49,381 nucleotides of DNA from an uncultured Deferribacterales bacterium (GTDB lineage: Bacteria; Chrysiogenota; Deferribacteres; Deferribacterales; Mucispirillaceae), in NCBI GenBank assembly GCA_947853665.1, contig CANTXF010000004.1, positions 1-49,381 of the forward strand. Direction: 5' to 3'. How positions within the stretch are numbered: the stretch's first letter is position 1; each line of letters begins with the position of its first letter. Position numbers and translations under genes: made by a program. The notes beneath the pieces are model-generated. The model did no database searches. It saw nothing but the letters and a program-made list of their open reading frames with translations, and was not told the origin of the DNA. Below are positions 4,188-47,996 of the stretch, one piece after another.

Positions 4188-4260
4188 GCGGGTATAGCTC
4201 AGTTGGTAGAGCGCAAGCTTCCCAAGCTTGAGGTCGCGGGTTCGAGCCCCGTTGCCCGCT
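4188..4260 (+). tRNA. tRNA-Gly (anticodon CCC)
   Basis: A complete cloverleaf of 73 bases without an encoded CCA. The acceptor stem GCGGGTA pairs with TGCCCGC (one T-G pair). The D arm is GCTC/GAGC, the anticodon stem CAAGC/GCTTG encloses TTCCCAA with CCC at 4221-4223, and the T arm carries TTCGAGC. The discriminator base is T. It reads GGG codons. A strong terminator follows 15 bases later. Confidence 0.97.
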
Positions 4261-4506: not shown

Positions 4507-4533
4507 TTGACATTCCCCCCCCCGTGATATTTT
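4507..4533 (+). promoter_or_regulatory. Promoter with C9 tract in the -35/-10 spacer
   Basis: A perfect -35 box TTGACA (4507-4512) is followed by TT, nine C (4515-4523), GTGA and a -10-like TATTTT (4528-4533). The spacer is 15 bases with nine C; 10 to 12 C would give 16-18 bases, around the sigma-70 optimum of 17. Spacer homopolymers that change length control phase-variable genes in other bacteria (for example porA of Neisseria). The start codon of the first lipoprotein gene is 30 bases downstream. Confidence 0.7.
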
Positions 4534-4562: not shown

Positions 4563-4943
4563 GTGTTAATTAAGCGCGCTTTTTTTCTTTGCCTGCTGTG
4601 CTGCTGTTTTTACGGCTGCGCCGGTAAAGCTCCCGTAGCGCCGCCTTCCGCCGCTTCCGAAAATCCGGACGGCTTAATTAGATTTTCCATTCTTATTGAA
4701 GGCCTGGAAGCCGCCTATTATCCGGCGGTTACGGACGCCCTTAAGGAAATGGAATCCTATGTGCGCCATACCGTTTCGATAAGCAGAGACGGTATTTTTG
4801 AAGCCGCTTTCAGGTTTAAAAACGATTCAAAAGTTTACGACGAAGCCGTCGTAAGGCTTAATTCCCTTTTTATGGTTATGTTAAAGACTGCGGATATAAG
4901 GCGCGTTCCCGGCGCCTTAAAAATAAAAGTTACCGAATGGTAA
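4563..4943 (+). CDS. Small lipoprotein of unknown function
   Basis: A 126-residue lipoprotein. The signal peptide ends in a lipobox FYGC with the lipidated Cys at residue 19. The mature part has an alternating beta/alpha pattern ('LIRFSILIEGL', a helix, then 'VSISRDGIFEAAFRF' and a second helix) that suggests a small ferredoxin-like fold. The GTG start is chosen because GGGAG lies 7 bases upstream and the signal peptide begins there. It is the first gene behind the C9 promoter and is followed within 20 bases by a second lipoprotein gene. I do not recognise the family. A role in the envelope is inferred from the lipobox and neighbours. Confidence 0.75.
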   Translation: MLIKRAFFLCLLCCCFYGCAGKAPVAPPSAASENPDGLIRFSILIEGLEAAYYPAVTDALKEMESYVRHTVSISRDGIFEAAFRFKNDSKVYDEAVVRLNSLFMVMLKTADIRRVPGALKIKVTEW

Positions 4944-10322: not shown

Positions 10323-10461
10323 ATTTTTTTATGTTTTTTATTAGTTTGTTATGTTGTTTTTATCTTTATAATACACATCGTTTCTGTTTTTTATATTGCA
10401 ATAAATATAAATTATGATAATAATTCCGATATATTTAGTTTAAAATCAACCAGGAGGGGAT

Positions 10462-11579
10462 ATGCTGGGGGATGCGGTGCACGCCTTGAACCGGTTAAAA
10501 GGTTCTGAACATGGGGGGGGGTACCTTTTCCCTGCCTTGCGGTAGCGTTTTTATTAATTGTTCTTTCTTTCTCTGATTTTTCTTACGGCGCGGATCAGGA
10601 GAATTGCCTTTTCTGCCATCAATATCCTCTTTTAGGCACTGTAGACGATAACGGAACTTATAATTCTTATTATGTGGACGAGAACCATTATATGGGTTCG
10701 GTCCACGCCGATTTGCAGTGTTCCGAATGTCATACCGGTATTTCAAAAGTTCCTCATGAAAGAAATCTTGAAGTAAATTGCACCAATCAATGCCACATGG
10801 ACGAACCGGCCGTAGGCCGCAAATATTCCCATAAAAATATCGAAGAGACCATAAAAGATTCCGCTCACAGCCCCTTATATAAGTATGTGCGGGCAAAAGG
10901 CGACGCTTCCGATTTTCCCACCTGCGTTTCGTGTCATAAAAACGAAGAAAATAAAGTTGTCATAACCTCCCGCAGAAATCTCGAACATGTTGTCATGGAG
11001 GAGGCCAGGGGAAAGTGCTTCGACTGCCATACGGATTTAAACAGCTTCGTAAGTAAGAATCTGGTGCACGTTCTCAGGATGACGGAGGGCACTTATTCCC
11101 AAAAGGAAATAATGGATATGTGCGTATCCTGTCATAACGACAAGGCTCTGAACGAACGGCATAAAATGGTTAACGCCATATATTCCTATCTTGAAAATTA
11201 TCACGGCAAAACCATGGTGCTGGGTCTTCCCGATGCGCCTTCATGTATTGACTGCCACGTTAAGCTTGGCGAGTCCGCCCATTCGATAAAAAGCTCCGCC
11301 GATCCGGACAGCGCGACTAACGCGGCAAACAGGGGGCTTACGTGCGTGCGCGCGGATTGCCACCCGAACGCCAGCACCGGTCTTGGTAAAAGCTATATTC
11401 ATGTGGTTCCGACGGACAGGGAGAGATTTCCCATACAGTTTTTTCTGCTGGCGTTTTTTACAGTTCTTACGGTGGTGTCTTTCGTATCTCTTATGCTCGT
11501 GCTGATACTTGAGCTTATAAGGATGATTTTTCCTAATTTTACAATATTCAGAAAGCCGGAGGAAAAGGATGAGCACTAA
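10462..11579 (+). CDS. Inner-membrane multiheme cytochrome c; start out of frame at a G9 tract
   Basis: First gene of the electron-conduit operon. The main frame is open from 10509 to 11579 and encodes a hydrophobic export signal, six CXXCH hemes (the first at 10605-10619), one CX3CH and one CX4CH motif, and a C-terminal membrane helix. The best start is ATG 10462, with AGGAGGGG just upstream, but as sequenced it reads into a stop at 10543. The nine G at 10513-10521 cause this: ten or seven G would join ATG 10462 in frame to the signal and hemes. Within the main frame the first usual start is GTG 10674, which would lose the signal and the first heme. It is probably a phase-variable gene in the OFF state, or a homopolymer sequencing error. 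Likely role: taking quinol electrons from the adjacent cytochrome b. Confidence 0.8.
10513..10521 (+). repeat. G9 homopolymer in the start region of the cytochrome gene
   Basis: Nine consecutive G lie between the ribosome-bound start (ATG 10462) and the hydrophobic signal segment. A second ATG (10511) abuts the tract and would be in frame with eight or eleven G. Outside this run and the C9 at 4515, the longest G or C run I found in the window is six. Confidence 0.9.
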
Positions 11580-12468
11580 CGGAAAGCCTCTGATAAAAAT
11601 AAAAAACGGCAAAAAGTATTATCTTAAACTGACGGGCAACCAGAGAGCGCAGCACTTTGTGCTTCTGGTCACGTTCATTACCTGTGTTCTTACCGGAATG
11701 CCCCTCAAATATTATTACTATCCATGGGCTGAAACCCTGCTGGGCTTTTTCGGCGGAGTTTCCGGAGCCGCCATAGTGCACCGTATAAGCGGCGTTATTA
11801 TGGTGTGCCTGTTTATTTATCATATTTTTTATATTTATAAACAGCTTAACCGCTATTATATACGCCCGGCAAAAACTGTCGGAGAGTTTTCCTTTAAAGG
11901 CCTTCTTAAATATATTTATCTGTCTCCGGTGTTCCCCCGTTACAAGGACCTTATAGATATGAAGGATATGATGAAGTATTACCTGTTCCTTTCAAATAAG
12001 CCTCCGCGCCACGAGCGTTTTTACTGGCGGGAAAAGCTGGATTATCTGGCTGTTTTCTGGGGGATAAACGTGCTTGGCATTACGGGAGCCATTCTCTGGT
12101 ATAAAGGCTTTTTTATGGAGTATCTTCCCGGCTGGGCCGTAAGCGTGGCGACTATCGCCCACTCTTTCGAGGCTCTCCTTGCCACTGCCGACATACTTAT
12201 ATGGCACATGTATAACGCCCATGTGAATTACGATAAATTTCCCGCTTCCGATTTGTTTCTTACCGGCTATCTGCCGGAGAATATAATGCGCCACGAATAT
12301 GTGTTGGAGTGGAAGCGTATAAACCGTATAGCCGAGGAAGACCCGTCGGTGATTTTTAATAAGGACGAATGGGACCTGCGTCAAAAAGAACGTGAGGCCG
12401 AACAGTATAAAGACACTATGGATTATATGGCGGCAGCAGCGGCCGCATCCAAGGGGGAAACCCTATGA
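11569..12468 (+). CDS. Membrane cytochrome b of the electron-conduit operon
   Basis: A 299-residue integral membrane protein with four main hydrophobic helices (about residues 30-48, 63-90, 155-180 and 200-220). It carries His residues suited to two b hemes: 'QRAQHFVLL', 'AAIVHRISG' and 'FIYHIFYIY' in the first half, 'ATIAHSFEALLA' and 'LIWHMYNAH' in the second. This is the pattern of the cytochrome b subunit paired with multiheme cytochromes in quinol:cytochrome systems such as the Cbc complexes of Geobacter. The gene overlaps the first cytochrome by 11 bases and has GGAGG upstream. It would oxidise menaquinol and pass electrons to the neighbouring c hemes. The C-terminus is a charged tail with an Ala run. 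Confidence 0.85.
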   Translation: MSTNGKPLIKIKNGKKYYLKLTGNQRAQHFVLLVTFITCVLTGMPLKYYYYPWAETLLGFFGGVSGAAIVHRISGVIMVCLFIYHIFYIYKQLNRYYIRPAKTVGEFSFKGLLKYIYLSPVFPRYKDLIDMKDMMKYYLFLSNKPPRHERFYWREKLDYLAVFWGINVLGITGAILWYKGFFMEYLPGWAVSVATIAHSFEALLATADILIWHMYNAHVNYDKFPASDLFLTGYLPENIMRHEYVLEWKRINRIAEEDPSVIFNKDEWDLRQKEREAEQYKDTMDYMAAAAAASKGETL

Positions 12469-13310
12469 GCGGAGGCCGCAATCCCATACTTACCAGGGTG
12501 TTCGCGGTAGTCGGTATCGCCGTGGTCACCTTGGGTACTTTAGTTACCCTGATGCTTATTTACGATATATGGAACCCGCCTTTTTTCAGGACGGCGGAAA
12601 AGCCGGTAGATCCGAGGTTCATTCAGATGAGAGTCCTTGCCGAGGGGATACAGCCAGATAATTTTACGGTAGCTTACCGTTCTCCGGCTGCGCTTTCTGC
12701 AAAGGATGATTTCCATAAGATAAAACTGCCGGGTGAAAACGACAAGGTAAGCCTCTGTATAACGTGTCACGGTTATCTGCCCCACGCCAGGGAAATCGAA
12801 ACCCGTTCTTTCCTCAATAAGCACAGCGCGGATATAGCCTGCGAAACCTGCCACGCGGGAGGGGAGGGACAGCCCTATTTCCGCTGGTATAACGTTTCCA
12901 CCGGCGATCTTGTGAAAAGTATAAAAATAACGGAAACCCTTACTCTGCCCGACTATAAGATAATAGCTCTATACGGGCCGGAAGTAACCAGCTACGACCG
13001 GAGGGACCGGATAAAGGAGGCCGAAGCGCTGCTCAGTAAAGCGTCCGCGTATTCCGCTTCCGAGCGCAGGGAAGCTATAAAGCCTTTCCACGGCAGTTTG
13101 AAAAAAACGGACGAAGCCCTTAAATGCGAAGCCTGCCACACCGCCGAAGGCCGGCCGTTTCTCCCTCTGGCGTCTTTAGGATATCCTGAAAGGCGCATAC
13201 AGCTTTTGATGACCTCCGAGATCATAGGCATGCTTACCAAATATAAGGAGTTTTACCTGCCGTCTTTCCTTTACAATAAAAATGCGGAGGAAGGAGCGGA
13301 GGCGAAATGA
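12465..13310 (+). CDS. Membrane-anchored triheme cytochrome c
   Basis: A 281-residue protein with an uncleaved N-terminal membrane helix (about residues 12-33) and a periplasmic part carrying three CXXCH motifs: CITCH at 98-102, CETCH at 126-130 and CEACH at about 222. Between the second and third is a helical, charged, heme-free region. The start overlaps the cytochrome b stop as ATGA, so the two are translationally coupled. It is the likely third subunit of the inner-membrane quinol-oxidising complex and hands electrons to periplasmic cytochromes. I do not recognise a narrower family. Confidence 0.85.
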   Translation: MSGGRNPILTRVFAVVGIAVVTLGTLVTLMLIYDIWNPPFFRTAEKPVDPRFIQMRVLAEGIQPDNFTVAYRSPAALSAKDDFHKIKLPGENDKVSLCITCHGYLPHAREIETRSFLNKHSADIACETCHAGGEGQPYFRWYNVSTGDLVKSIKITETLTLPDYKIIALYGPEVTSYDRRDRIKEAEALLSKASAYSASERREAIKPFHGSLKKTDEALKCEACHTAEGRPFLPLASLGYPERRIQLLMTSEIIGMLTKYKEFYLPSFLYNKNAEEGAEAK

Positions 13311-14188
13311 AAACCGCTGCCGCTTCCCTGCTTTTTATGGCCCTCCTGGCTTCAAGTGGCTGGTGCCTGGATATATTTAAAACGGAGACCGTATTTCTTG
13401 AGCGTTACGACAACGCTTCCATGCCCGCGGACATAGCGATGAATGGCAAAGGCGATTTTGTCATATACGACGCCATGAAGGGCGGTATGCAGGCTTATAA
13501 GGCTTATAAAGCCAGGGGGGACGGCTATTACGACGGGCTTTTTAAGGGCGGCGTCTGTCTCGTGGCTCAGGATAAGCTTTATTACCTGTGCGATTCGCCC
13601 GGAAAGAGGGTTCTTATCCTCGATAAAAATTTTAAACCTTCCGGCGAGATAAAAGACGGGCCTAAATTCGACCCGACTGACGCGGTAAAATATAAAAACC
13701 GGCTTTTTATCGTCGATAATGATAATCACCGGCTGGTTATTTTCGATATGAAAAACAAATCCGTGTCAGGTTCCTTCGGAAAACGCGGTTCAGAATTGGG
13801 TTCGTTCAGCTATCCGTTTTCCATAGCCGTCGATAACGACGGTTATGTATTTGTGTCGGAAGTGATAAATACGCGCCTCCAGATGATAACTCCAGCCATG
13901 AAGGGCACTTATTCAATCGGCAAATGGGGAGTCGAGGCGGGGCAGCTTTACAGGCCTAAAGGAGTCGCGATTTATAAGAATAAATATCTGATAGTGTCCG
14001 ACGGTTATCTAGGCGTTCTCCAGATTTTTGATATGAACGGAAATTTTGTGGGCGCTTTGGGCGACGCTTCAGGCGGTATAAAACGCTACGAATCCCCCAC
14101 AAGGATAAGGATATACGGCGATGATCTGGCCGTTGTGGACCCTTACGGCAGGCTTGTTGAAATACTGCGTATCGGAGGCCTGGAATGA
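13307..14188 (+). CDS. Exported NHL-repeat beta-propeller protein
   Basis: A 293-residue secreted protein with an N-terminal signal ending near SGWC|LD and a run of about six NHL-type blades. Typical blade pieces are 'PTDAVKYKNRLFIVDNDNHR', 'YPFSIAVDNDGYVFVSEVIN' and 'PKGVAIYKNKYLIVSDGY'. It has no heme motif. Proteins of this kind are often encoded among porin-cytochrome loci in metal-reducing bacteria, where a scaffold or assembly role is suspected but unproven. The start and stop overlap the neighbours by ATGA-like junctions, so it is made in step with the cytochromes. The Cys at the end of the leader does not form a good lipobox. Confidence 0.85.
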   Translation: MKTAAASLLFMALLASSGWCLDIFKTETVFLERYDNASMPADIAMNGKGDFVIYDAMKGGMQAYKAYKARGDGYYDGLFKGGVCLVAQDKLYYLCDSPGKRVLILDKNFKPSGEIKDGPKFDPTDAVKYKNRLFIVDNDNHRLVIFDMKNKSVSGSFGKRGSELGSFSYPFSIAVDNDGYVFVSEVINTRLQMITPAMKGTYSIGKWGVEAGQLYRPKGVAIYKNKYLIVSDGYLGVLQIFDMNGNFVGALGDASGGIKRYESPTRIRIYGDDLAVVDPYGRLVEILRIGGLE

Positions 14189-17100
14189 AGCCCTTGATCA
14201 CTGTTTTTTCAACACTGTGTCTCCTTGCAGTTACGGTTATATACGCAAATTCCCAGGCCCTGACGTTTAAACGCCAGCCTAACTCGGCCAAGGAATGCGC
14301 CATTTGCCATTATGAAATGATGGAAGTCTTTATTTTCGATAATAAAAGCACTGAGATCGCGCCTTATCCCATTACTAAAGAGGTATCATCGGAAAGGATG
14401 TGCTTTTCATGCCATGACGGTTCCGTAGGCGACAGCAGGCTGCGGGTCTGGGATGTTGCCGGTATGGCTCATAAAACGGGCACGCCTTTAAAGGAAGGTA
14501 TGCAAAAGCTCAGCGAGCTGCCCCTCTCCGATGGGAAAATCACCTGTATGACATGCCACACCGCCCACGGTGAACAGAATAACGGAACGGGGCTTACGGA
14601 TATATCCAACAGCCTTTTCCTGCGTATGCCGAACGATACCTCGCAGTTATGCAAAAGTTGCCATACGGATAAAGACGGCAAAGACAGCCACTCTATGAAA
14701 ACCCTTAATAAGGATCTGGTTCCGGGTGTGGTTTCAAAAGATGGAATGGTCGGTTCAGGCGGCAATATGGCGTGCACCTCCTGCCATACTGTCCACGGGG
14801 CCGGCGTTAAAGAGCTGACCATTGCGGACGGCGGCGATATGTCCCTTTGCAGAGTTTGTCACGAAGATTTATTTTCCGATAAAAAAACGGGGGAGGAACA
14901 TTTTACGCCCCATGTGGCTTATAAGCTGCCGCTTACTTCCGACGCTGAAAACGCGATAAAGGCTGGGGGCGGCCTGCTCGGTCCCGACGGCGGCCTTGTA
15001 TGCTATTCGTGCCATAAGGTGCACAGCGCCAAGGGCCAGTCCATACTTATTTTTCCGGAAAAAGGCGAAGCATTATGCGGCGAATGCCATAAAGGGTTTG
15101 AAAAAGTATCCGGCGGCTCCCACGATATGAGGCGGGCGAAAGGGTTTAAAACTCCCGACGGCAGGACGGCGGAAGAAGCGGGGGTTTGCGGCTCCTGCCA
15201 CGGCGGCCACACGTGGCGGCTGGGAGAAAAAAGCGTTTCCTCAGATAAAATTACGGATATGTGCATGACTTGCCACAGTAAGGACGGCCCCGCCGCCGGG
15301 AAAGCCATAAACCTTAATATGTATAACCACTTTACCGGGGATATAGACGCACAGTTTTTCTCAAAAAATATGAAAGCGCCGGGGAACGCTGCCGAGCTGA
15401 GCAAATCTGCCGGAAGATTCCTGACGGCTTTCCTTTCCGACAAGCGGGCGTTAAAAACCGTGTTCGCGGATAAACGCATGACGTGCGTAACGTGCCACGA
15501 CGTACACTCGGACGGCAGGATGATGGTCCGTGAGGACGCGAAAAGCGGCAAACTGTGCGTTTCATGCCATGAAGAAAAGGCAGGAACCTTATCTACGCCC
15601 CACGGCGACAGTAAGGTGGACGGCACATGCCTGGGCTGTCACGACATACACAATTCGAAAGATAAGGGCCTTGTGCGCGGAGGCGCGTCCGACGACGGTT
15701 GCCTTACCTGCCACGGAGAGCAAAGCGTTAAGTCCGCTGAAATGCCGCGCGGTATGGTAAAATCCATGCCGGCGGAGCTTGTCTATAAAGGGCATAATCA
15801 CCCTACGGGTATAGGACGGCCTGAGCCTTTTCCCGCCCCGATGAATAATAAAGCCGACGGCAAACTCAGCTGCGTATCGTGCCATGACCCCCATATTTCT
15901 GATAAAAACGGAGTTATGGGCGGCAGTTTCGTAAGGACGGATTCCAGAATGAAATCCCCCGACGATTTCTGCGCGCTCTGCCACGATAAGGAGAAGGCCG
16001 TGGCGGCCACGTCCCATGGGCCGGATATTAAAAAGGCTCCGTTAGCCAATAAGCGTACAGGAAGGGTCGCCGGGACGTGCGACGGATGCCATAAAGTCCA
16101 TAACGCATACTCTTCCGAAGGAATACCGTCCGTCGACGCTGTCTACGGTTCTCCCGACAGCCTGTGCCTTAACTGCCACAGCGATACGGGCTCGGCGAAA
16201 GATAAAAAAATAGACGTGTCGCTGGGGCATAAAACAGGCCTGCTTGATAAAGAGCCCAAGGACGCGCCTCTTGATTATTTTACGCAGGAAAACGGCAAAT
16301 ATTATTTAAGATGTTCCACGTGCCACGATCCTCATTTAAACGGCCCTAAGCCTGGAGCGGAAGGCAATATTTCCGACAGTTTTCTAAAAAAACTGGATAA
16401 CCAGGTAAATATATGCGTTTCCTGCCATGAGGATAAGGGCAGGGTAAGTACCGGCGGCCACGGAGTGGCCAACTTTCAGAGGAAGACAGCAGATATTGAG
16501 GCAAGGGTTAAAACCGGCGATATTTGCGGTTCCTGTCATACTATGCATAACAGCAAACCGAAATATCTTATGGACGGGGATACCGACAGCGACCGCTGCA
16601 TGGTATGCCACGATAAGGATAAAATGTCCGTAAAATACGTGGGGATGACGCACAGAACGGACGTGGATATAAAACCGGAACTTGCGGATAAGCTGCCCCT
16701 TATCGACGGCAGGATTTCATGCAAAACCTGCCATATGGTCCATAACGCCACTCCCGGTCTTATCAGAGGTAAATCCGGCAGGGGAGAGGATCTGTGCGGC
16801 GTTTGCCATGAGGATAAAGGGACCGTCCTTCAGTCCAAGCATAATATGCGCATAAACGGCATAAAAGACCGGGATATAAAGAAAATGGCGGCTGAAAACG
16901 GGTGCGAACCGTGTCACGCCTCCCACGACCCCGACAGGAAAACAAGCGTGGCCATAGGTAAAGTAGCTTCCGGCGGTTTTGCCATAGAGAGCCACTGCGT
17001 CAGCTGCCATACTAAAAACGGGCTGGCTTCAGATTCCGTGCCGGAAAGCCTCAGGCATTCTTCGGTAATGAAAACCCTTAAATCCATAGAAAAGCTGGCG

Positions 17101-17412
17101 CCGTATATTTACGACGCTTCCGGCAGAAAATCCGCTTTGGGAGATATAGATTGTTCTACCTGTCACGATCCGCACAAATGGAGCGCGGACCCGGCTAAAG
17201 CAGGCCAGTTTTATAAAGAGGGGCTGAAAATCCAGTCGGACAATACTACCAGCTTTCTCAAAAAAGGCGTTCCCGGGGAATTCTGCATAGTGTGCCATGA
17301 AGACCCGCAGGAGTGGTTTAACAATTTCCATTCGGAAAAATACCGTGCCGAAAGGGAAGGGGCCAAAAAGCCTTCTACTCTGCTCGACAGGGTAATAAAG
17401 CTGTTTGACTAG
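14185..17412 (+). CDS. Giant periplasmic cytochrome c with 28 heme-binding motifs
   Basis: A 1075-residue secreted protein with a signal peptide ending about NSQA|LTF and 28 CXXCH motifs spread evenly to the C-terminus, about one per 38 residues. Many are in the doubled form 'C-x-x-C-H-x-x-H' (for example 'CHTVHG', 'CHDPHL', 'CHMVHN'), where the second His can be the distal ligand of a neighbouring heme. The motif-spacer pattern recurs as tandem paired-CXXCH units. There is no lipobox or membrane helix, so it should be soluble in the periplasm or threaded into the barrel encoded next. Its size would let a linear heme chain span the periplasm. It overlaps the NHL gene by 4 bases. Confidence 0.92.
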   Translation: MKPLITVFSTLCLLAVTVIYANSQALTFKRQPNSAKECAICHYEMMEVFIFDNKSTEIAPYPITKEVSSERMCFSCHDGSVGDSRLRVWDVAGMAHKTGTPLKEGMQKLSELPLSDGKITCMTCHTAHGEQNNGTGLTDISNSLFLRMPNDTSQLCKSCHTDKDGKDSHSMKTLNKDLVPGVVSKDGMVGSGGNMACTSCHTVHGAGVKELTIADGGDMSLCRVCHEDLFSDKKTGEEHFTPHVAYKLPLTSDAENAIKAGGGLLGPDGGLVCYSCHKVHSAKGQSILIFPEKGEALCGECHKGFEKVSGGSHDMRRAKGFKTPDGRTAEEAGVCGSCHGGHTWRLGEKSVSSDKITDMCMTCHSKDGPAAGKAINLNMYNHFTGDIDAQFFSKNMKAPGNAAELSKSAGRFLTAFLSDKRALKTVFADKRMTCVTCHDVHSDGRMMVREDAKSGKLCVSCHEEKAGTLSTPHGDSKVDGTCLGCHDIHNSKDKGLVRGGASDDGCLTCHGEQSVKSAEMPRGMVKSMPAELVYKGHNHPTGIGRPEPFPAPMNNKADGKLSCVSCHDPHISDKNGVMGGSFVRTDSRMKSPDDFCALCHDKEKAVAATSHGPDIKKAPLANKRTGRVAGTCDGCHKVHNAYSSEGIPSVDAVYGSPDSLCLNCHSDTGSAKDKKIDVSLGHKTGLLDKEPKDAPLDYFTQENGKYYLRCSTCHDPHLNGPKPGAEGNISDSFLKKLDNQVNICVSCHEDKGRVSTGGHGVANFQRKTADIEARVKTGDICGSCHTMHNSKPKYLMDGDTDSDRCMVCHDKDKMSVKYVGMTHRTDVDIKPELADKLPLIDGRISCKTCHMVHNATPGLIRGKSGRGEDLCGVCHEDKGTVLQSKHNMRINGIKDRDIKKMAAENGCEPCHASHDPDRKTSVAIGKVASGGFAIESHCVSCHTKNGLASDSVPESLRHSSVMKTLKSIEKLAPYIYDASGRKSALGDIDCSTCHDPHKWSADPAKAGQFYKEGLKIQSDNTTSFLKKGVPGEFCIVCHEDPQEWFNNFHSEKYRAEREGAKKPSTLLDRVIKLFD

Positions 17413-17422
17413 AGGAAGCTTT

Positions 17423-18814
17423 ATGAAAACGGGTTTTAAGTTTATATGCGCCGTAATTTTGGTTTTCCTTGCGTCGAACGTTTATCCTGCGTCTATTGAT
17501 GAAAGAGTGGCGGAGCAGAGGAAGCGCGACGTTATAACCGGGGATAACGAAACCGTGAGCCGGGAGCATTTAAGGCGCTTCGCCGAGCGTGATCACACTC
17601 CTTTTACGGTAGGTTCTTTCGTATTCGACGGGTTTCTGAGGTTCAAATACGAGAACGCGAAAACCTATGACGGCGTGAAATACTCTTTCCTCAGAACGTA
17701 CCTTAACCTGAACATGCTGAATGTCGGCGTTACCGGCCTTTCCCTGCATTTCTACGGCGATATGCAGAACAGCCTTAAAAATGCCGATGAGGACCTGGAT
17801 CTTTATTACGGATACATCAGGTACAAAACTTTTCAGAATGCCGTTGATATAAAGGCCGGGCGTTTTGAGCTTATCAATAACAACTTTATGACAGTAGACG
17901 GCGGTCAGGTTACTTTTATAACCCCGGCGTATTTCGGCGTTACTTTATACGGCGGCGTTCCCTATTACAAAAACTTTGAAGACAGAAAAGAGGTTTTCAG
18001 AGACACTGGCGACCTTATATACGGGGGCCGCGTGTTTTTAAGCGGTATCGAATCCGTAAGCGCTTATATCGGTTATTCCAGGGAAACGGGCAAAAACAGC
18101 GAAGGCCGTTACGGTGTTTTCAGCGAAATCTTAAGCGCGGGCGGTTATTACGTTTATGATATGTCCTCAGACGGTGTTGAATCCTACGCCAGCGTAAACG
18201 CCGTTGCGGAGTACGACCCTTTCCACGGAGCCTTATCCAGGCTTTCCGGTAAAGCCAACTATCGCCGCGGTATGTTTGAGCTGGTGGCTTTCGGCGATAT
18301 TTTCGACATAAGGGACCAATACCCGAAAGGGCGCGAGCTTATAATCAGGCTTCTTTCCACCGGTAAGGAAATGCGTTACGGAGGCGACGCGGCCTTTAAC
18401 CCGGCGGACTGGATTTCGATTTACGGCGGAGTTTACGGCACCACGGTTGAAGTAAACAGCGGAAGCAATATTTACGGTGCGGTTTATAAAGCCGGTTTCG
18501 ACCTTTACTTTATGAAATATGCAGGGCTTATGTTTGCGGGCGAGTTTTACTATTACGACACCGGCCGTTACGATGCCCTTGGCGGGGCTCTTTCCGGCGA
18601 ATGGCGCGTAACCCAGGATTTATCTTTTATTCTTTCCGGAGAGCTGGCGAGCCTTAAAGACGGCGTAGATACCATAAACGCCTACGCCGTGAACGCGGAG
18701 CTGACACTGCATATTACAAGGTTCCTTACAGCTTCCGTTTTTTATGAAAAAGGCGAAAAAAACCGCTTTATAGACGATATGCGCTGCGGAGCTACGGTGA
18801 AATATGATTTCTGA
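17423..18814 (+). CDS. Predicted outer-membrane beta-barrel of the conduit
   Basis: A 463-residue protein with a signal peptide ending about VYPA|SID, a short soluble N-terminal segment, then about 20 amphipathic strands rich in Tyr, Phe and Gly ('AGLMFAGEFYYYDTGRY', 'GVYGTTVEVNSGSNIYGAV'). It ends in Phe ('VKYDF'), the usual insertion signal of outer-membrane barrels. The start at 17423 is preferred over one six codons upstream because AGAGGAAG precedes it. It lies between the 28-heme cytochrome and three heme lipoproteins, which makes it the likely porin of a porin-cytochrome complex, like MtrB or OmbB in function although sequence similarity is not claimed. Confidence 0.85.
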   Translation: MKTGFKFICAVILVFLASNVYPASIDERVAEQRKRDVITGDNETVSREHLRRFAERDHTPFTVGSFVFDGFLRFKYENAKTYDGVKYSFLRTYLNLNMLNVGVTGLSLHFYGDMQNSLKNADEDLDLYYGYIRYKTFQNAVDIKAGRFELINNNFMTVDGGQVTFITPAYFGVTLYGGVPYYKNFEDRKEVFRDTGDLIYGGRVFLSGIESVSAYIGYSRETGKNSEGRYGVFSEILSAGGYYVYDMSSDGVESYASVNAVAEYDPFHGALSRLSGKANYRRGMFELVAFGDIFDIRDQYPKGRELIIRLLSTGKEMRYGGDAAFNPADWISIYGGVYGTTVEVNSGSNIYGAVYKAGFDLYFMKYAGLMFAGEFYYYDTGRYDALGGALSGEWRVTQDLSFILSGELASLKDGVDTINAYAVNAELTLHITRFLTASVFYEKGEKNRFIDDMRCGATVKYDF

Positions 18815-19412
18815 AAAAAATAAGAAAAGACCTGCTGTTTTTATCCTGCTTGCTGCGGTTTCGCTGTGTGTCCTGTGCGGCTGCGTGGCTTACCGCTATG
18901 TTACCCCATATAATACCTATAATCACGAGCAGCATGAGGATGCCCTTCTTGCGAGGGATATGGACTGTTTTTCATGCCATATCGTGGACGTGGACGAACC
19001 TGACCCCTTAAAGCGTCTCCAGAAATTGAAAGAGATGCTGAAGGAGGACGACCATAAAAAATTTGACACCGAGCTTTGCCATCAATGCCACATAGAGGAA
19101 AAAACAAAGCAGGAGGAGGCGCCCACGCGCTGCCGCCTCTGCCATGAAAACCTGAACGAGATACTGCCTTCCGACCACCAGGGTTTTTGGAAAAGCACCC
19201 ACGCCGTTGCGGCGCAGGTATCCGACGCAAAATGTCTCGAATGCCACGACAGATGGTATTGCGCCGATTGCCATACGGCCAGGGATCTGAGCGTCTCCAG
19301 AATGCATCCCAGGGCTTTCAGGATAGCCCATGTGGCCGCGGCCGTGGCCGACCCGGCTTCGTGCAGCTCCTGTCACAGTTCGGCGTTCTGCCGCGACTGC
19401 CACACGAGGTAA
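18804..19412 (+). CDS. Seven-heme outer-membrane lipoprotein cytochrome
   Basis: A 202-residue lipoprotein with lipobox LCGC (Cys27) and seven CXXCH motifs (CFSCH, CHQCH, CRLCH, CLECH, CADCH, CSSCH, CRDCH). The last two pairs are closely spaced near the C-terminus, where the motif 'CHSSAFCRDCHTR' ends the protein. The start overlaps the end of the barrel gene by 11 bases. It is likely lipid-anchored at the outer membrane and in contact with the barrel, but which face cannot be told from sequence. Confidence 0.85.
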   Translation: MISEKNKKRPAVFILLAAVSLCVLCGCVAYRYVTPYNTYNHEQHEDALLARDMDCFSCHIVDVDEPDPLKRLQKLKEMLKEDDHKKFDTELCHQCHIEEKTKQEEAPTRCRLCHENLNEILPSDHQGFWKSTHAVAAQVSDAKCLECHDRWYCADCHTARDLSVSRMHPRAFRIAHVAAAVADPASCSSCHSSAFCRDCHTR

Positions 19413-19418
19413 ACTATT

Positions 19419-20033
19419 ATGAACAGTAAGAGCAGTTTTAACGCGGCAGTTTTCATTTGCCTTGCCTTCGCTCTGGCAGTTGCCGGATGTATGGACGATG
19501 CGAATACGAAAGTTACCGACAGCGACGGATACACCCTTAATTTGCGCCATACGGGGTGGGGTTCTTCCGACTGCGCGGCCTGTCATCCAAAATCGACCTT
19601 CCTTGAAACCGGCACCGCTGCGGATGAAATCCACAGTATATTAAAATTTTCGGATGATGAAGTTTATTATGGCGGCTGCCGCTCGTGTCACGGGGAAAAC
19701 GGGGAAGCCATGGACAACTCCGGCCTGACCGCCTGCGTGCTTTGCCATTCTGATTCCGTCCGTTTTATCGGCATAAACGGCAGGTTTACTTTTACCCATT
19801 CAAAATCGGCCGATTTGACGTGGCCTGGGGACGATTGCCGCGTATGCCATAATGTGGAGTTCCACCCGTCTAAAAACACGTCTTTATACACGATGCCTGA
19901 CTCCGCCTGTCTTAACTGCCATTCCGACCACGGCGAAGGCCTTGGCTGCGCCGGATGCCACAGTCAGGACGGCGGATTTTACAGAGATACCGATGGAAAT
20001 ATAAGGGGCCATAAAGCCGGTTATCAAAACTGA
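19419..20033 (+). CDS. Six-heme lipoprotein cytochrome
   Basis: A 204-residue lipoprotein with lipobox VAGC (Cys24) and six CXXCH motifs (CAACH, CRSCH, CVLCH, CRVCH, CLNCH, CAGCH). Extra His residues ('HSKSADLTW', 'EFHPSKN', 'HSDHGEG') could serve as distal ligands. It starts 6 bases after the seven-heme gene stops, so it belongs to the same operon. Its position between the barrel and the large 13-heme lipoprotein suggests a surface or barrel-associated electron relay. Confidence 0.85.
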   Translation: MNSKSSFNAAVFICLAFALAVAGCMDDANTKVTDSDGYTLNLRHTGWGSSDCAACHPKSTFLETGTAADEIHSILKFSDDEVYYGGCRSCHGENGEAMDNSGLTACVLCHSDSVRFIGINGRFTFTHSKSADLTWPGDDCRVCHNVEFHPSKNTSLYTMPDSACLNCHSDHGEGLGCAGCHSQDGGFYRDTDGNIRGHKAGYQN

Positions 20034-20111: not shown

Positions 20112-22415
20112 ATGCGAAGAAGTATTCTTTTCATTTTTGGTCTTACTCTTTCCGTTTTCCTGCTGTCGTCGTGTTCCGACGGCAAAGACGGCAGGGACGG
20201 TATAGACCTGACCAAAGAGCCTGAAATTGCCATGTCGACCAAGGGCTGCGTTACCTGTCACTCGCAGGAGCAGCATCTCGTTGCGGCAAGCAAGCATATT
20301 TATCCGTCGTCTGTTTATTATGTGCCGTCCGGCGCAGATTGCGACAGATGCCATAATCCCGATCTCGATTATTCTTATGTTGACCCTACCGCGAAAGGCG
20401 GCCTTTCATGCACCAGCTGTCACGAGCTTGACGGCTCCGTTAAAAATAATCCCATGCACTCGTCCTACGCGTCCAATACGGACAACTGCATAAAATGCCA
20501 CGAAGATTTAACGGTGCACGGCTCCCACGGTTCTCAGTACGCGCATTACTTCCCGTACAGCAACAATATCGCCAAAGTTTTCGGTTCGGTTGAAGAAAGC
20601 TATCCCGGGCACGGCAACTCAAGCGGAAAGGCTATACGAGAAGGCGACCCCAGAGCCTGCGGCCTTTGCCACTCCGGCCCGGTATTTGCCAATATCACTC
20701 TAAAAATTGCAAAAAGAGGCGTAACGGAGGTGGCCCTTCCCGAAGGCGGGAAAGTATACCGTACTAACGGAGGCGCCAATGAAGCTGTATACGCCAATTT
20801 CGACCAATACGCTGAAAACGCTAAAAATCTGCACCTGGAGCTTGCCGGTTCGGACAGCATCGGCTGCGATTCCTGCCACGATTCCCACAGCCTGCCGGGA
20901 GACAGGAGCCTTCGTTCCGCCGACGTTAAAAACGGTGACATGGTTGTGGCGTCTTCGGAATTTATGCTCTGTACGTCCTGCCACGTGGCCAATGTGGATA
21001 TAGCCGAGAATGGAAAATCGGCCGTTATCAGCGCGCTTTTCACCGGCACTCCTACGTCTGATGGTTTTCTGCCTGACGCGGACGCGTCGCTTATCGAGCA
21101 CCACGGTAAGGATTTTTCCAAATCCGCCACACATTCCATACTTGATACCCACTTTGCGGGAACCCTGTACGCTAAATATTCCGTTACCGAAGACGGAAAA
21201 GTTAAAGTCGAGGATAATACCATAGTAACCGTAAAAGGCTACGGTGTGGACCCGTCGGCAAGAAACGCCTGCACCGGATGCCATGACGCTCACGGAAGCT
21301 CCATATTCGCTCCAGCTAAGGACAGCACGGAATACGCTTCTGCGGCTCAGACTTGGGGGCAGTCCAAACACGCGGCCGACAGCCATGTAAGCGCAAGCTG
21401 CGCTCCTTGCCACGTAAACCGTTCCCATGCCACGGCCGTTAAAGGCAACGACGAGTATATAACTGCGCAGGTGCAGAACGTGCCGCCTTCCGCACAGATT
21501 GCGTGCCTTACGTGCCATGAGGGCAGCTCTGAAATTATCGACAACGCCAGCATCATTACAGGTGAAAATCTTAAAAAACTCCGTGTTATCGAAAGCGCCG
21601 GCACATTCAAATACGCTTTTGAATTTGATATGACGGACGAACAGTTTAACGCTATCAAGGCCAAATATCCTACTGACGATATTATGCTCTGCGGAGGCTG
21701 CCACGCAGGCGGCCATGGCGGCGGTACGGTTCCCCAGGCGTTTCAGGATTCGGACGGCACTTCCGACGTTAAATATAATACCGGCCATTATCCTTCCTTC
21801 GGCACTTTTACTGGGGTTATTTTCGACCTTACGACCAACGCTCGCGGAACCTATGAAGCGGCCGGGCCTCTTGGAAGCCACATCCAGTATGTAGAGCAGG
21901 ACGGATGCCTGTCATGCCATGCCACGGATAAGGATAATCACGGTTTTGCCGTTTACAGCGACGAGCCTTCCATGACTCTCGTCAGAAAAGACTGCGTTCC
22001 GTGCCATACGGACGGCGTTATGTTCGAGGGCGGCGAAAACACCAGAAACCAGGTAAAATCCCTGCAAAAAGTTATTACGGCGATTTTGCCGGCTAGGGGA
22101 GTAAGTATCAATCTTACTACTTCGACCGTCCCGGACGAGTCTGAAAGGTATAAACTTGCCATGGCTCTGGGCAATCTGGCTGTGGTGAAAGCCGACAGCG
22201 GCCTTTACGCGCACACTAATAAAAAGCTGATTAAGCAGATAGTGTATGACAATATGATGGCGATTAAGGATTATATCAATCTTATAAGCCTTGACGCGAC
22301 TATGGACTTAAATGGAGCCACCAAGTTTAACGGCGGTAAATCCGGAGAAGCGGCCAATCTTGATTCCGCTGATATCGCTAATGTTAAGAGATTTTTTGAC
22401 GGCTTTACCCGCTGA
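20112..22415 (+). CDS. Thirteen-heme lipoprotein cytochrome, probable extracellular terminal reductase
   Basis: A 767-residue lipoprotein with lipobox LSSC (Cys21) and a Gly-x-x run (DGKDGRDGID) right after it. It has 13 CXXCH motifs between about residues 46 and 635, separated by long heme-free stretches as in MtrC/OmcA/OmcB-type surface cytochromes. The last 110 residues have no heme and look like a helical bundle ('LIKQIVYDNMMAIKDYINL'). AAGGAGG precedes the ATG. It is the last and largest lipoprotein of the operon, so it is the best candidate for the outer-face cytochrome that touches minerals, electrodes or partner cells. Substrate is unknown. Confidence 0.88.
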   Translation: MRRSILFIFGLTLSVFLLSSCSDGKDGRDGIDLTKEPEIAMSTKGCVTCHSQEQHLVAASKHIYPSSVYYVPSGADCDRCHNPDLDYSYVDPTAKGGLSCTSCHELDGSVKNNPMHSSYASNTDNCIKCHEDLTVHGSHGSQYAHYFPYSNNIAKVFGSVEESYPGHGNSSGKAIREGDPRACGLCHSGPVFANITLKIAKRGVTEVALPEGGKVYRTNGGANEAVYANFDQYAENAKNLHLELAGSDSIGCDSCHDSHSLPGDRSLRSADVKNGDMVVASSEFMLCTSCHVANVDIAENGKSAVISALFTGTPTSDGFLPDADASLIEHHGKDFSKSATHSILDTHFAGTLYAKYSVTEDGKVKVEDNTIVTVKGYGVDPSARNACTGCHDAHGSSIFAPAKDSTEYASAAQTWGQSKHAADSHVSASCAPCHVNRSHATAVKGNDEYITAQVQNVPPSAQIACLTCHEGSSEIIDNASIITGENLKKLRVIESAGTFKYAFEFDMTDEQFNAIKAKYPTDDIMLCGGCHAGGHGGGTVPQAFQDSDGTSDVKYNTGHYPSFGTFTGVIFDLTTNARGTYEAAGPLGSHIQYVEQDGCLSCHATDKDNHGFAVYSDEPSMTLVRKDCVPCHTDGVMFEGGENTRNQVKSLQKVITAILPARGVSINLTTSTVPDESERYKLAMALGNLAVVKADSGLYAHTNKKLIKQIVYDNMMAIKDYINLISLDATMDLNGATKFNGGKSGEAANLDSADIANVKRFFDGFTR

Positions 22416-45179: not shown

Positions 45180-47996
45180 ATGAGTTGGAAAGAACTTTCT
45201 GAAAAAGCAAAAAAAGGCTGTTCCAGACGTACGTTTATGAAAGGCACCGCCGCTGCGGCCGCCGCCGTTACCCTGGCCGGCTGCTCAAAAGACGACGATG
45301 ATGTAAGCTACCTGCCAGGTCAGGCGGGGAACGCCCCCGATTTAAGGGAAGTGCGCAAGGTATATTCCACCTGCCCGGTAGAATGTCTTACTCACAGCCT
45401 TAACTGCCAGCTTGTGGGAGACGAGGTCGTCAGGGTTGAGCCTACGCAAAAGCCCGGCGATATGTATTTTACCACCGCATGCGCCAGAGGCATGAGCCGT
45501 ATGCAGTTTCTCACGGAGAACAGAGCCCTTACCCCTATGAAAAGGATAAAAATGGGCACGGAAGTTTCTGAGCTTGGCGTACAGCTTAAAAATAACGATG
45601 TGGACCAGTGGGTGTCCATATCCTGGCAGCAGGCCATAAGTGAGATAGGCGCGAAGCTCAGAGAACTGCGGGAAGCCGGAGAGACCGGTATAATGCTTTG
45701 GACCGGTTCCGGCAACATGGGGCCCATAGCCAATACTCTTATAGGCAATTTTTTTGACCATGTAAGCCCTAACAGAACGTCCAAACTGGGCAACTCCTGC
45801 TGCGCGGGCGTTGACGCCGGTATGGTGCCCGTTTACGGCGTAAGGGGCATAGACACACGCGATACCATACGCTATTCCAAATGTATAATAAACTGGGGCA
45901 ATAACCCGGCGGAAACTTCCAATACCTACTGGAAATTCGTTGTAGACGCGAAAATTAACGGAGCTAAGGTAATCACCATAGACCCCCGTTACAGCGGCTC
46001 TGCGGAAAAATCCGATATATGGGTGCCTATAAAACCGGGAACGGACGTGCTTTTCGGCATAGGCATGCTGCGCCATATATTTGAATCGGACGTCAGCAAC
46101 GGCGGGAGCCAAAACTGGGTCGATATGGATATGCTGAAGTACCGTTCCAACGCTCCTTATCTTATCGACATATCAGAGATAGTTGAAAACGGAAAACTTA
46201 AAGAAAAAGCCTACAATGAGCTTTATAAAGTGACCCTCCTCGGTAATAAGCCTCAGATATACAACAAAAATACGCTTTCAATCGAAGACGCTGAGAATAA
46301 TAACGGTATAGAAGGAGCTCATACTCAGGAGCCAGATCTTTATCATACCGATATGGCTGAAAATATTACCACCGCTTATCAGCTTATGCGCGCCCTTTAT
46401 GCAGGCGATCTTCTTCAGACCGGAAGAGAAGAATGGGTTAATGACGATCTTGCGCTTCTTCACGACCCTAATTATGAGGAAGGTTACATCGTATCGACAA
46501 CCGGGACGACGCAAGAAATCATAAAAGAAGTTGCCGCCGCTTATGCAGGCTCCGGTAAAAAATCCATGATAATAGAAAATATGGGCGGCGCCCAGCGTAC
46601 CGAAAGCGCTGGCCACGAATGCGCGATGCACTGCATACTTTCCGTTATTACTGGCAACGTGGGAAATCCGGGCAGCGGCGTTGACGATACTTCCGGCTGG
46701 TCTTCTGCCGCCAGCGGGCTTCAAAGCGGTGATAAGCCTGCTCCGGGAACTGCTATCCCCGGTCTTAAAAATGTGTCTGGAAAAGTTTATCATGATATAC
46801 CTTTCGGCACTTTGGGCACGAGAGCCCTTGCAGCCGCTAAAGGAGAGCCTTACGACACATATAAGAAAAAAGATGGTAATGCCGAAAAAGACCCGTATAT
46901 AAAATTCTGGTATTTGTCCACAAGCAATCTGCTTACCCAGTTTCCTAACACCAACGCTCTTAAAGAAGCATTAAGGCGTTCCGAGTGCGTTGTAACTGCC
47001 AAACCTACATGGAATACTGACGCTGATTATTCCGACTATTTCCTGCCTGTGACCACTCCTTTCGAATACGAGGATATAGGAGCGGCCAACAGAAATAAGT
47101 ATATCCAGGTAATGGAGCCGGGTGTTAAACCCTACGGTCAGGCCCGTTCTGATATGCAGATACTCAGGGACCTTGCTAAAATAGTTTTCGACGATCCGGA
47201 AGTTATAGCAAACTTTGACCACGAAGACGGATATTATCCGAAAGCGCTGGTGGAAAACCCTGCTAATAATCTGGCAGAGAACGGTCTTTTAAGCTACGAC
47301 CAGCTTAAAGCTGAAAAAGTATTCCGTCCCGCAGCCTATCCTCTGCCTTTCGTGCCTCTGCGCAAGCTGGAATTTAAAAATGATCTTGCGAGAGCTCACA
47401 TATTTATTGCCGACTGGAATAAAGACGACGGAAAGGTTTCCGGCTGCAAATCCAATATAGACCGTTCCCCGAACCCGGCCAGAGACCTTTACCGCGGGCC
47501 TTTCCCCAGGTATGTGCCGGCTCTCCAGAGCCATCTGCCCTGGCTTTCCGATTTTCCGTGGCTGGGGGTAAATAAGCTGCTTGACGTTCCCAAAGATATG
47601 GATCAGGACTATCAGGCTATCAGAAACGCTTATCCTCTCTGCAACGTACAATTTAAAGTGCTCAGAACGGTGCACGCTTCCTTTACCGGCCTTCCCTGGA
47701 TACGTGAAGCCTTCGGCGAGCGCGGCGTAGTTCTTATGCATCCGAATGACGCTTGGGAGCGTGGCATTTCCGATGGAGACACCGTTACAGTAAAAAGCTG
47801 GATAGGAGCGGTGGAAAGGGTGGCCAGAGTTACGGAATTTATTATGGAAGGCGTTACCGCCATTGAAAACGGATGGTGGGATAAATACGGCAAGGTAAGC
47901 TCCAGCACGGTAGGTGTTGAACTTCCCGGTGCCCTTAACAACGCCCATACCCATAACAACACCCTTGTGGAAATCACTAAAGGAGGTATGAAATAA
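45180..47996 (+). CDS. Tat-lipoprotein molybdopterin oxidoreductase, catalytic subunit
   Basis: A 938-residue DMSO-reductase-family enzyme binding bis-MGD molybdenum (or tungsten). A Tat signal 'CSRRTFMKG' at residues 14-22 runs into a lipobox LAGC (Cys35), so it is probably a lipid-anchored periplasmic protein. Fe-S cysteines follow in 'CPVECLTHSLNC' and 'CARG'; the spacing C-x3-C-x6-C-x24-C is odd for the family. 'SKLGNSCCAGVDAGM' supplies a Cys where the metal ligand is expected, as in polysulfide, thiosulfate, arsenate and nitrate (Nap) enzymes. Downstream come an Fe-S subunit and a chaperone. The substrate cannot be told. GGGAGG precedes the ATG. Confidence 0.88.
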   Translation: MSWKELSEKAKKGCSRRTFMKGTAAAAAAVTLAGCSKDDDDVSYLPGQAGNAPDLREVRKVYSTCPVECLTHSLNCQLVGDEVVRVEPTQKPGDMYFTTACARGMSRMQFLTENRALTPMKRIKMGTEVSELGVQLKNNDVDQWVSISWQQAISEIGAKLRELREAGETGIMLWTGSGNMGPIANTLIGNFFDHVSPNRTSKLGNSCCAGVDAGMVPVYGVRGIDTRDTIRYSKCIINWGNNPAETSNTYWKFVVDAKINGAKVITIDPRYSGSAEKSDIWVPIKPGTDVLFGIGMLRHIFESDVSNGGSQNWVDMDMLKYRSNAPYLIDISEIVENGKLKEKAYNELYKVTLLGNKPQIYNKNTLSIEDAENNNGIEGAHTQEPDLYHTDMAENITTAYQLMRALYAGDLLQTGREEWVNDDLALLHDPNYEEGYIVSTTGTTQEIIKEVAAAYAGSGKKSMIIENMGGAQRTESAGHECAMHCILSVITGNVGNPGSGVDDTSGWSSAASGLQSGDKPAPGTAIPGLKNVSGKVYHDIPFGTLGTRALAAAKGEPYDTYKKKDGNAEKDPYIKFWYLSTSNLLTQFPNTNALKEALRRSECVVTAKPTWNTDADYSDYFLPVTTPFEYEDIGAANRNKYIQVMEPGVKPYGQARSDMQILRDLAKIVFDDPEVIANFDHEDGYYPKALVENPANNLAENGLLSYDQLKAEKVFRPAAYPLPFVPLRKLEFKNDLARAHIFIADWNKDDGKVSGCKSNIDRSPNPARDLYRGPFPRYVPALQSHLPWLSDFPWLGVNKLLDVPKDMDQDYQAIRNAYPLCNVQFKVLRTVHASFTGLPWIREAFGERGVVLMHPNDAWERGISDGDTVTVKSWIGAVERVARVTEFIMEGVTAIENGWWDKYGKVSSSTVGVELPGALNNAHTHNNTLVEITKGGMK

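Follow-up and report, generated by a model that had tools for sequence, protein, structure and literature searches.

The window analysed here, a 49,381-nucleotide stretch of DNA from an uncultured Deferribacterales bacterium, is one contig of a 2.43-Mb, 97% complete genome that is fragmented into 68 contigs and MAG-like (G000; genus g1, family f1). Its forward strand carries an operon of nine genes, w1–w9. The first, w1 (10524–11579), is a multiheme cytochrome frame with a signal peptide, six CXXCH and two CX3-4CH motifs and a C-terminal membrane anchor, and is present as a single copy in the genome. It is followed by w2, a cytochrome b561/formate dehydrogenase gamma-like membrane protein gene with its own GGAGG (11569–12468), the triheme cytochrome w3 (12465–13310), the NHL-repeat protein w4 (13307–14188) and the 28-heme cytochrome w5 (14185–17412). 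The distal part encodes a predicted 22-strand outer-membrane beta-barrel, w6 (17405–18814), and three lipoproteins: the heptaheme w7 (18804–19412), a relative of the pentaheme cytochromes in the putatively phase-variable dmsA-like cassettes described below, the hexaheme w8 (19419–20033) and the 13-heme w9 (20112–22415), a possible outer-surface cytochrome.

The barrel prediction for w6 comes from an AlphaFold model built on 12 sequences (mean pLDDT 79.7, 22 strands), used in place of an earlier three-sequence model that was too weak (pLDDT 41). With full probability and moderate TM-scores (0.3–0.5), Foldseek matched it to porins of the outer membrane and to other barrels; w6 matched no Pfam or NCBIfam family, and sequence searches of the PDB returned no match. 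The 28-heme cytochrome w5 scored 143.4 bits against TIGR03508, under the cut-off of 192.2, and the sequence models placed none of the operon proteins in the MtrA/DmsE or MtrB families. The operon does combine a barrel with periplasmic and lipoprotein multiheme cytochromes, which is the Mtr-type architecture. Because no part of it falls inside a curated Mtr/Dms family, we use “electron conduit” as a functional reading of this architecture. The order of w1–w5 (6–8-heme cytochrome, b561, triheme, NHL, 28-heme) is kept in members of families f3, f6, f7 and f8, and the barrel, 7-heme and 6-heme genes w6–w8 have counterparts in two f6 loci.

Upstream of w1, a strong Shine–Dalgarno sequence (AGGAGGGG, 10452–10459) precedes an ATG at 10462, whose frame of 27 codons ends at TAG 10543–10545 owing to a tract of exactly nine G at 10513–10521. 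The frame that carries the signal peptide and first CXXCH and runs on into the cytochrome (from 10524) contains no ATG, GTG or TTG before GTG 10674, and the latter was rejected as a start, since it lacks a Shine–Dalgarno sequence and would cost the protein its signal peptide along with one heme site, the first CXXCH. A second ATG (10511–10513), close to the start position of w1 orthologs, lies 8 nt downstream of the weak Shine–Dalgarno AAAAGG (10497–10502). When the tract length was changed in silico, ten or seven G let ATG 10462 run into the cytochrome (372 or 371 aa), eight or eleven G let ATG 10511 open a 355- or 356-aa product, and nine (or six, or twelve) G left no usable cytochrome start, that is, an OFF state. 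The gene is thus ON in two length classes out of three, because the second ATG takes its own G from the first position of the tract. The signal peptide obtained at eight G lacks a positive N-region, which counts against a switch. The tract is a G/C homopolymer above the PhasomeIt cut-off of at least 7 (PMC6321876), and a one-unit change in its length would switch the gene, as required of a phase-variable locus.

The first-pass annotation had described the stop at 10543, the other, signal-bearing frame and GTG 10674 as the only standard in-frame start, and all three are borne out. Its proposal that ten or seven G would restore the gene applies to ATG 10462 and misses the eight- and eleven-G products of ATG 10511. 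It had further suggested that downstream translation is coupled to w1 by overlapping starts and stops and is possibly switched with it; since ATG 11569 of w2 has its own GGAGG, an OFF w1 need not silence the later genes, although the ~1 kb of untranslated message in that state could exert polarity on them. Its phase-variable interpretation accordingly holds for ON/OFF switching, which is well supported by the genome-wide and comparative evidence below, and is incomplete in the length rule and weak in the coupling.

Sixteen w1 orthologs from other families were examined. Their likely start lies 23–39 codons before the first CXXCH, at the signal peptide, and none has a long G run there, from which it appears that the tract was added at an ordinary start in the lineage of the window genome. 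The first-pass annotation had named in-frame relatives without a G tract as evidence against a switch. The 16 orthologs are such relatives, yet they do not refute it, because w1 itself is conserved and acquired its tract in this lineage, in whose genome further tracts shift other genes likewise. No close w1 ortholog was found in the other 14 genomes of family f1, and among the genomes examined w1 and the tract occur together only in the window genome, which counts against the switch; a same-species genome with a different w1 tract length was looked for and none was found. A related gene also occurs in a Seleniivibrio MAG (Deferribacterota).

A pattern search of the whole genome identified 63 G/C runs of at least nine bases, 59 of them exactly nine long. 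These tracts comprise 69 overlapping nine-base G/C windows, as against ~0.3–2 per genome expected under order-4/5 Markov models. We retrieved ±2 kb around each tract (266 kb in total); as these stretches were picked around runs of nine or more, the counts of shorter runs are the unbiased part. In this DNA, runs of 4, 5, 6, 7, 8, 9, 10 and 11 bases numbered 1018, 200, 20, 0, 2, 59, 3 and 1, so the peak at nine is isolated and lengths 7–8 are nearly missing. The complete, single-contig genome G002 (2,347,083 bp, 31.2% GC), which belongs to family f1, gave 2, 1, 31, 8 and 2 runs of 7, 8, 9, 10 and 11 bases in its fetched stretches. We infer that f1 corresponds to Mucispirillaceae, that G002 is Mucispirillum schaedleri or very close kin, and that the window genome represents another genus of the family. 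Within f1, genomes of genus g3 with a completeness of at least 90% have 16–55 nine-base windows and those of genus g2 few; other families of the order mostly show 0–9 per genome, with some f4 and f9 genomes higher. The raw G9 counts of G037, G024 and G046/G047 were left out of the evidence, some of them resembling poly-G sequencing artefacts, as were the long contig-end G runs of G005, which inflate its count. Campylobacter poly-G/C tracts peak at 9 (53%) and 10 (26%) (PMC6321876); the concentration of 59 of the 63 tracts at exactly nine is sharper, and this counts against the switch reading. The window genome and nearly all its relatives encode MutS and MutL, which rules out mismatch-repair loss as the cause of the tracts and also weighs against switching.

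We applied one classifier to every G/C run in the sampled DNA. Runs of at least nine that split an open frame were in frame in 13 cases and out of frame in 18, as opposed to ratios of 87:6 at length 5 and 433:54 at length 4 (Fisher p = 6e-9 for runs of at least nine versus runs of 5). The G-rich strand was the coding strand in a ratio of 40:5 for long tracts and 68:52 for runs of 5, and 31% of long tracts, against 11% of runs of 5, lay 10–80 codons after the start of a long frame. Tracts also occupied promoter spacers: nine placements had at least 10 of 12 hexamer matches, compared with a mean of 0.9 in shuffled flanks. About eight loci have TTGAC(A/T) a few bases or less away from the tract. 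With nine G most of their spacers measure 15 bp, which one or two extra G would lengthen to 16–17 bp. In G002, tract-bearing spacers between perfect TTGACA and TATAAT hexamers measured 15, 16 and 17 bp at tract lengths of 9, 10 and 11. Both an excess over chance and a placement at functional positions, the marks of phase-variable loci, are thus found in this genome. The window holds a tract of the promoter type (4507–4533, forward strand) with the arrangement TTGACA, TT-C9-GTGA (15 bp) and TATTTT, in which the C9 run at 4515–4523 fills the –35/–10 spacer ahead of a small lipoprotein ORF at 4563; it is a probable second phase switch. Near it, at 4188–4260, lies a gene for tRNA-Gly(CCC), the reader of the GGG codons of such tracts.

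The commonest tract targets are Tat-signal, lipobox-bearing DmsA-like molybdopterin oxidoreductases, with the N-terminal pattern SRRxFxKG...YGCSKDDGGEIIY-G9. Twelve such genes with a tract occur in the window genome, six in frame and six out of frame, alongside five paralogs and the DmsA-like Tat-lipoprotein gene at 45180–47993 of the window that have none. A dmsA-like paralog (L130, G000:C47) carries the interrupted glycine linker IIYGGGGGN where the tract would be; its frame is open, and it looks like a switch locked ON. By the curated models the enzymes of the cassettes described next resemble DmsA and DmsB and are not members of either family, scoring 255.9 bits against a cut-off of 777.7 for TIGR02166 and 126.4 against 214.1 for TIGR02951.

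G002 contains four complete cassettes (L217, L218, L219 and L220), each consisting of a dmsA-like gene with G9, dmsB-like and torD-like genes, and genes for a 513-aa protein and a 166-aa pentaheme cytochrome. The last two genes are 96–100% identical between the copies and the reductases differ, which suggests that the output part they share undergoes recombination or gene conversion. The cassette pentaheme cytochrome matches w7 (E about 4e-8), and the 513-aa protein has a local match to w6 (36% over 67 aa, E 2e-7), on account of which we presume it to be a barrel. In the window genome the cassette contigs C7, C18, C46, C56, C57, C58 and C62 have fragments of the 513-aa gene at their ends, so the cassette repeat probably broke the assembly.

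Both length and phase vary between related genomes at the dmsA-like loci, a further property of phase-variable loci. One orthologous tract is nine long and OFF in G002, G008, G011, G012 and the window genome and ten long and ON in G010; other dmsA-like tracts have 8, 9 or 10 G across species and are ON or OFF. In related enzymes of genus g2 an ordinary linker replaces the tract, and the frame is open in all copies examined; this is the natural contrast expected if a switch can be either retained or lost. M. schaedleri was reported to up-regulate in inflammation a reductase system homologous to DMSO, tetrathionate and TMAO reductases (PMC5285517), and this system may be one of the dmsA-like cassettes.

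Taken together, these data make it likely that slipped-strand phase variation of the G9 tract switches w1, the first cytochrome of the conduit, at its translation start. Since the window belongs to a fragmented, MAG-like assembly and homopolymers concentrate errors, the consensus could instead be wrong, with a true tract of eight or ten G and w1 simply ON. We regard this as improbable: runs of 4–6 in this assembly seldom fall out of frame, indicating a low indel error rate, whereas among tracts of nine or more the in-frame and out-of-frame states are about equally common, and the same holds in the single-contig, complete G002. Even if the length were wrong, eight to ten G at a start would stay prone to slippage.

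The missing start at nine G would also be explained if w1 were a fixed, frameshifted pseudogene in a conduit that is now unused, and the 14 family genomes lacking a close ortholog indicate that conduit loss has occurred in the family. Against this, w1 retains every heme motif and the membrane anchor over 351 open codons, none of the eight genes after it is disrupted, and the sole lesion is a tract length reversible by a one-base slip, which leaves decay a very small chance. RNA polymerase slippage on homopolymers is established, and a +1 or –1 slip on the G run by polymerase or ribosome would join a start to the cytochrome frame. Such programmed slippage or frameshifting would yield a constant full-length fraction from unchanged DNA. 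It leaves unexplained both the promoter-spacer tracts and the fact that orthologous tracts differ from species to species in DNA length and phase, and we therefore hold it to be a poor candidate for the main mechanism; it may coexist with the switch as leakiness.

Under the slipped-strand switch, replication slippage would add or drop a G in the w1 tract, and a population with a consensus of nine would consist mostly of OFF cells with an ON minority. Expression would be strong at ten G and probably weaker at eight. As the putative inner-membrane or periplasmic first cytochrome of a conserved Deferribacterales conduit, w1 would, when lost, cut electron flow from the quinone pool to the 28-heme/barrel conduit. 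Given that the bacterium and its relatives carry dozens of tracts, many of them within genes of respiration on external electron acceptors, cells probably turn this respiration on and off at random. The same phasome would switch about a dozen DmsA-like molybdoenzyme lipoproteins, many with their own presumed barrel and pentaheme genes, so that it would be the choice of outside acceptors that is randomised, and the trunk conduit may be linked to the reductase cassettes. We lean slightly towards a broader interpretation, in which a gut Deferribacterota lineage, probably including M. schaedleri, possesses a poly-G phasome that acts mainly on extracellular respiration, with the trunk conduit of the window genome and about a dozen surface-directed DmsA-like reductase cassettes switched independently and each cell receiving a random combination of acceptors, as bet-hedging or division of labour.

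The poly-G phasome of Campylobacter and Helicobacter (PMC6321876) is similar in its G/C homopolymers in N-terminal coding or promoter positions with a modal length of nine, in its mixed ON/OFF states and in its tens of loci per genome. The present case differs in phylum (Deferribacterota), in the sharper length peak and in its top target class, extracellular respiration (dmsA-like cassettes and a cytochrome conduit) in place of surface glycans, flagella and restriction-modification. Neisseria porA/opc and Bordetella fim are promoter-spacer poly-C/G switches. They share with the window's C9 tract a homopolymer between –35 and –10, where spacer length would set promoter strength; the conduit switch, in contrast, would be translational, the promoter type being represented by the neighbouring tract.

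In Shewanella, DmsEFABGH mediates extracellular DMSO respiration and Mtr systems are porin–cytochrome conduits. The reductase cassettes resemble the former in bringing together DmsA/DmsB-like subunits, a TorD-like chaperone, a presumed barrel and a multiheme cytochrome, and the window operon resembles the latter in its barrel and its periplasmic and lipoprotein multiheme cytochromes. Unlike the Shewanella proteins, those described here match NCBIfam models under the curated cut-offs, their barrels match no Pfam or NCBIfam family, and the 28-heme and NHL subunits have no equivalent in Mtr/Dms. In Haemophilus influenzae, dmsABC expression is under the ModA phasevarion (PMC8340005), so that there too phase variation affects a respiratory sulfoxide reductase; the effect is indirect, through a phase-variable methyltransferase, whereas here the tracts lie within the respiratory genes. 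A literature search, with most subscription papers outside its reach, found no publication that connects phase variation to extracellular electron transfer or to multiheme cytochromes, or relevantly to Mucispirillum, in agreement with the first-pass annotation, which knew of no phase-variable operon of this kind.

Phase variation is mostly known from pathogens, where it affects genes for surface antigens, adhesins and restriction-modification. If the broader interpretation is correct, a gut symbiont gambles on its electron acceptors beyond regulating them, and a respiratory phasome could explain how clonal populations meet fluctuating sets of acceptors. Should G002 indeed be M. schaedleri, a strain in standard use in gnotobiotic mice would be available as a test system.

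Tract targets outside the reductases include chemoreceptors, sulfatase-domain proteins, a GGDEF-EAL protein, and Ig-like and acyltransferase genes. G9 runs lie in or just before the sulfatase-domain genes L045 and L052, the GGDEF-EAL gene L069 and the chemoreceptor genes L022, L028 and L032. In G002, a ~510-aa protein that weakly matches the conduit barrel has an in-frame G9 near its midpoint (L106, G002:C1:1548466). At L030 (positions 2001–2009; G000:C10:113565), G9 separates an upstream 263-codon frame that looks nicotinamidase-like from a nicotinate phosphoribosyltransferase frame; the two would fuse upon loss of one G, giving a possible phase-variable NAD-salvage fusion.
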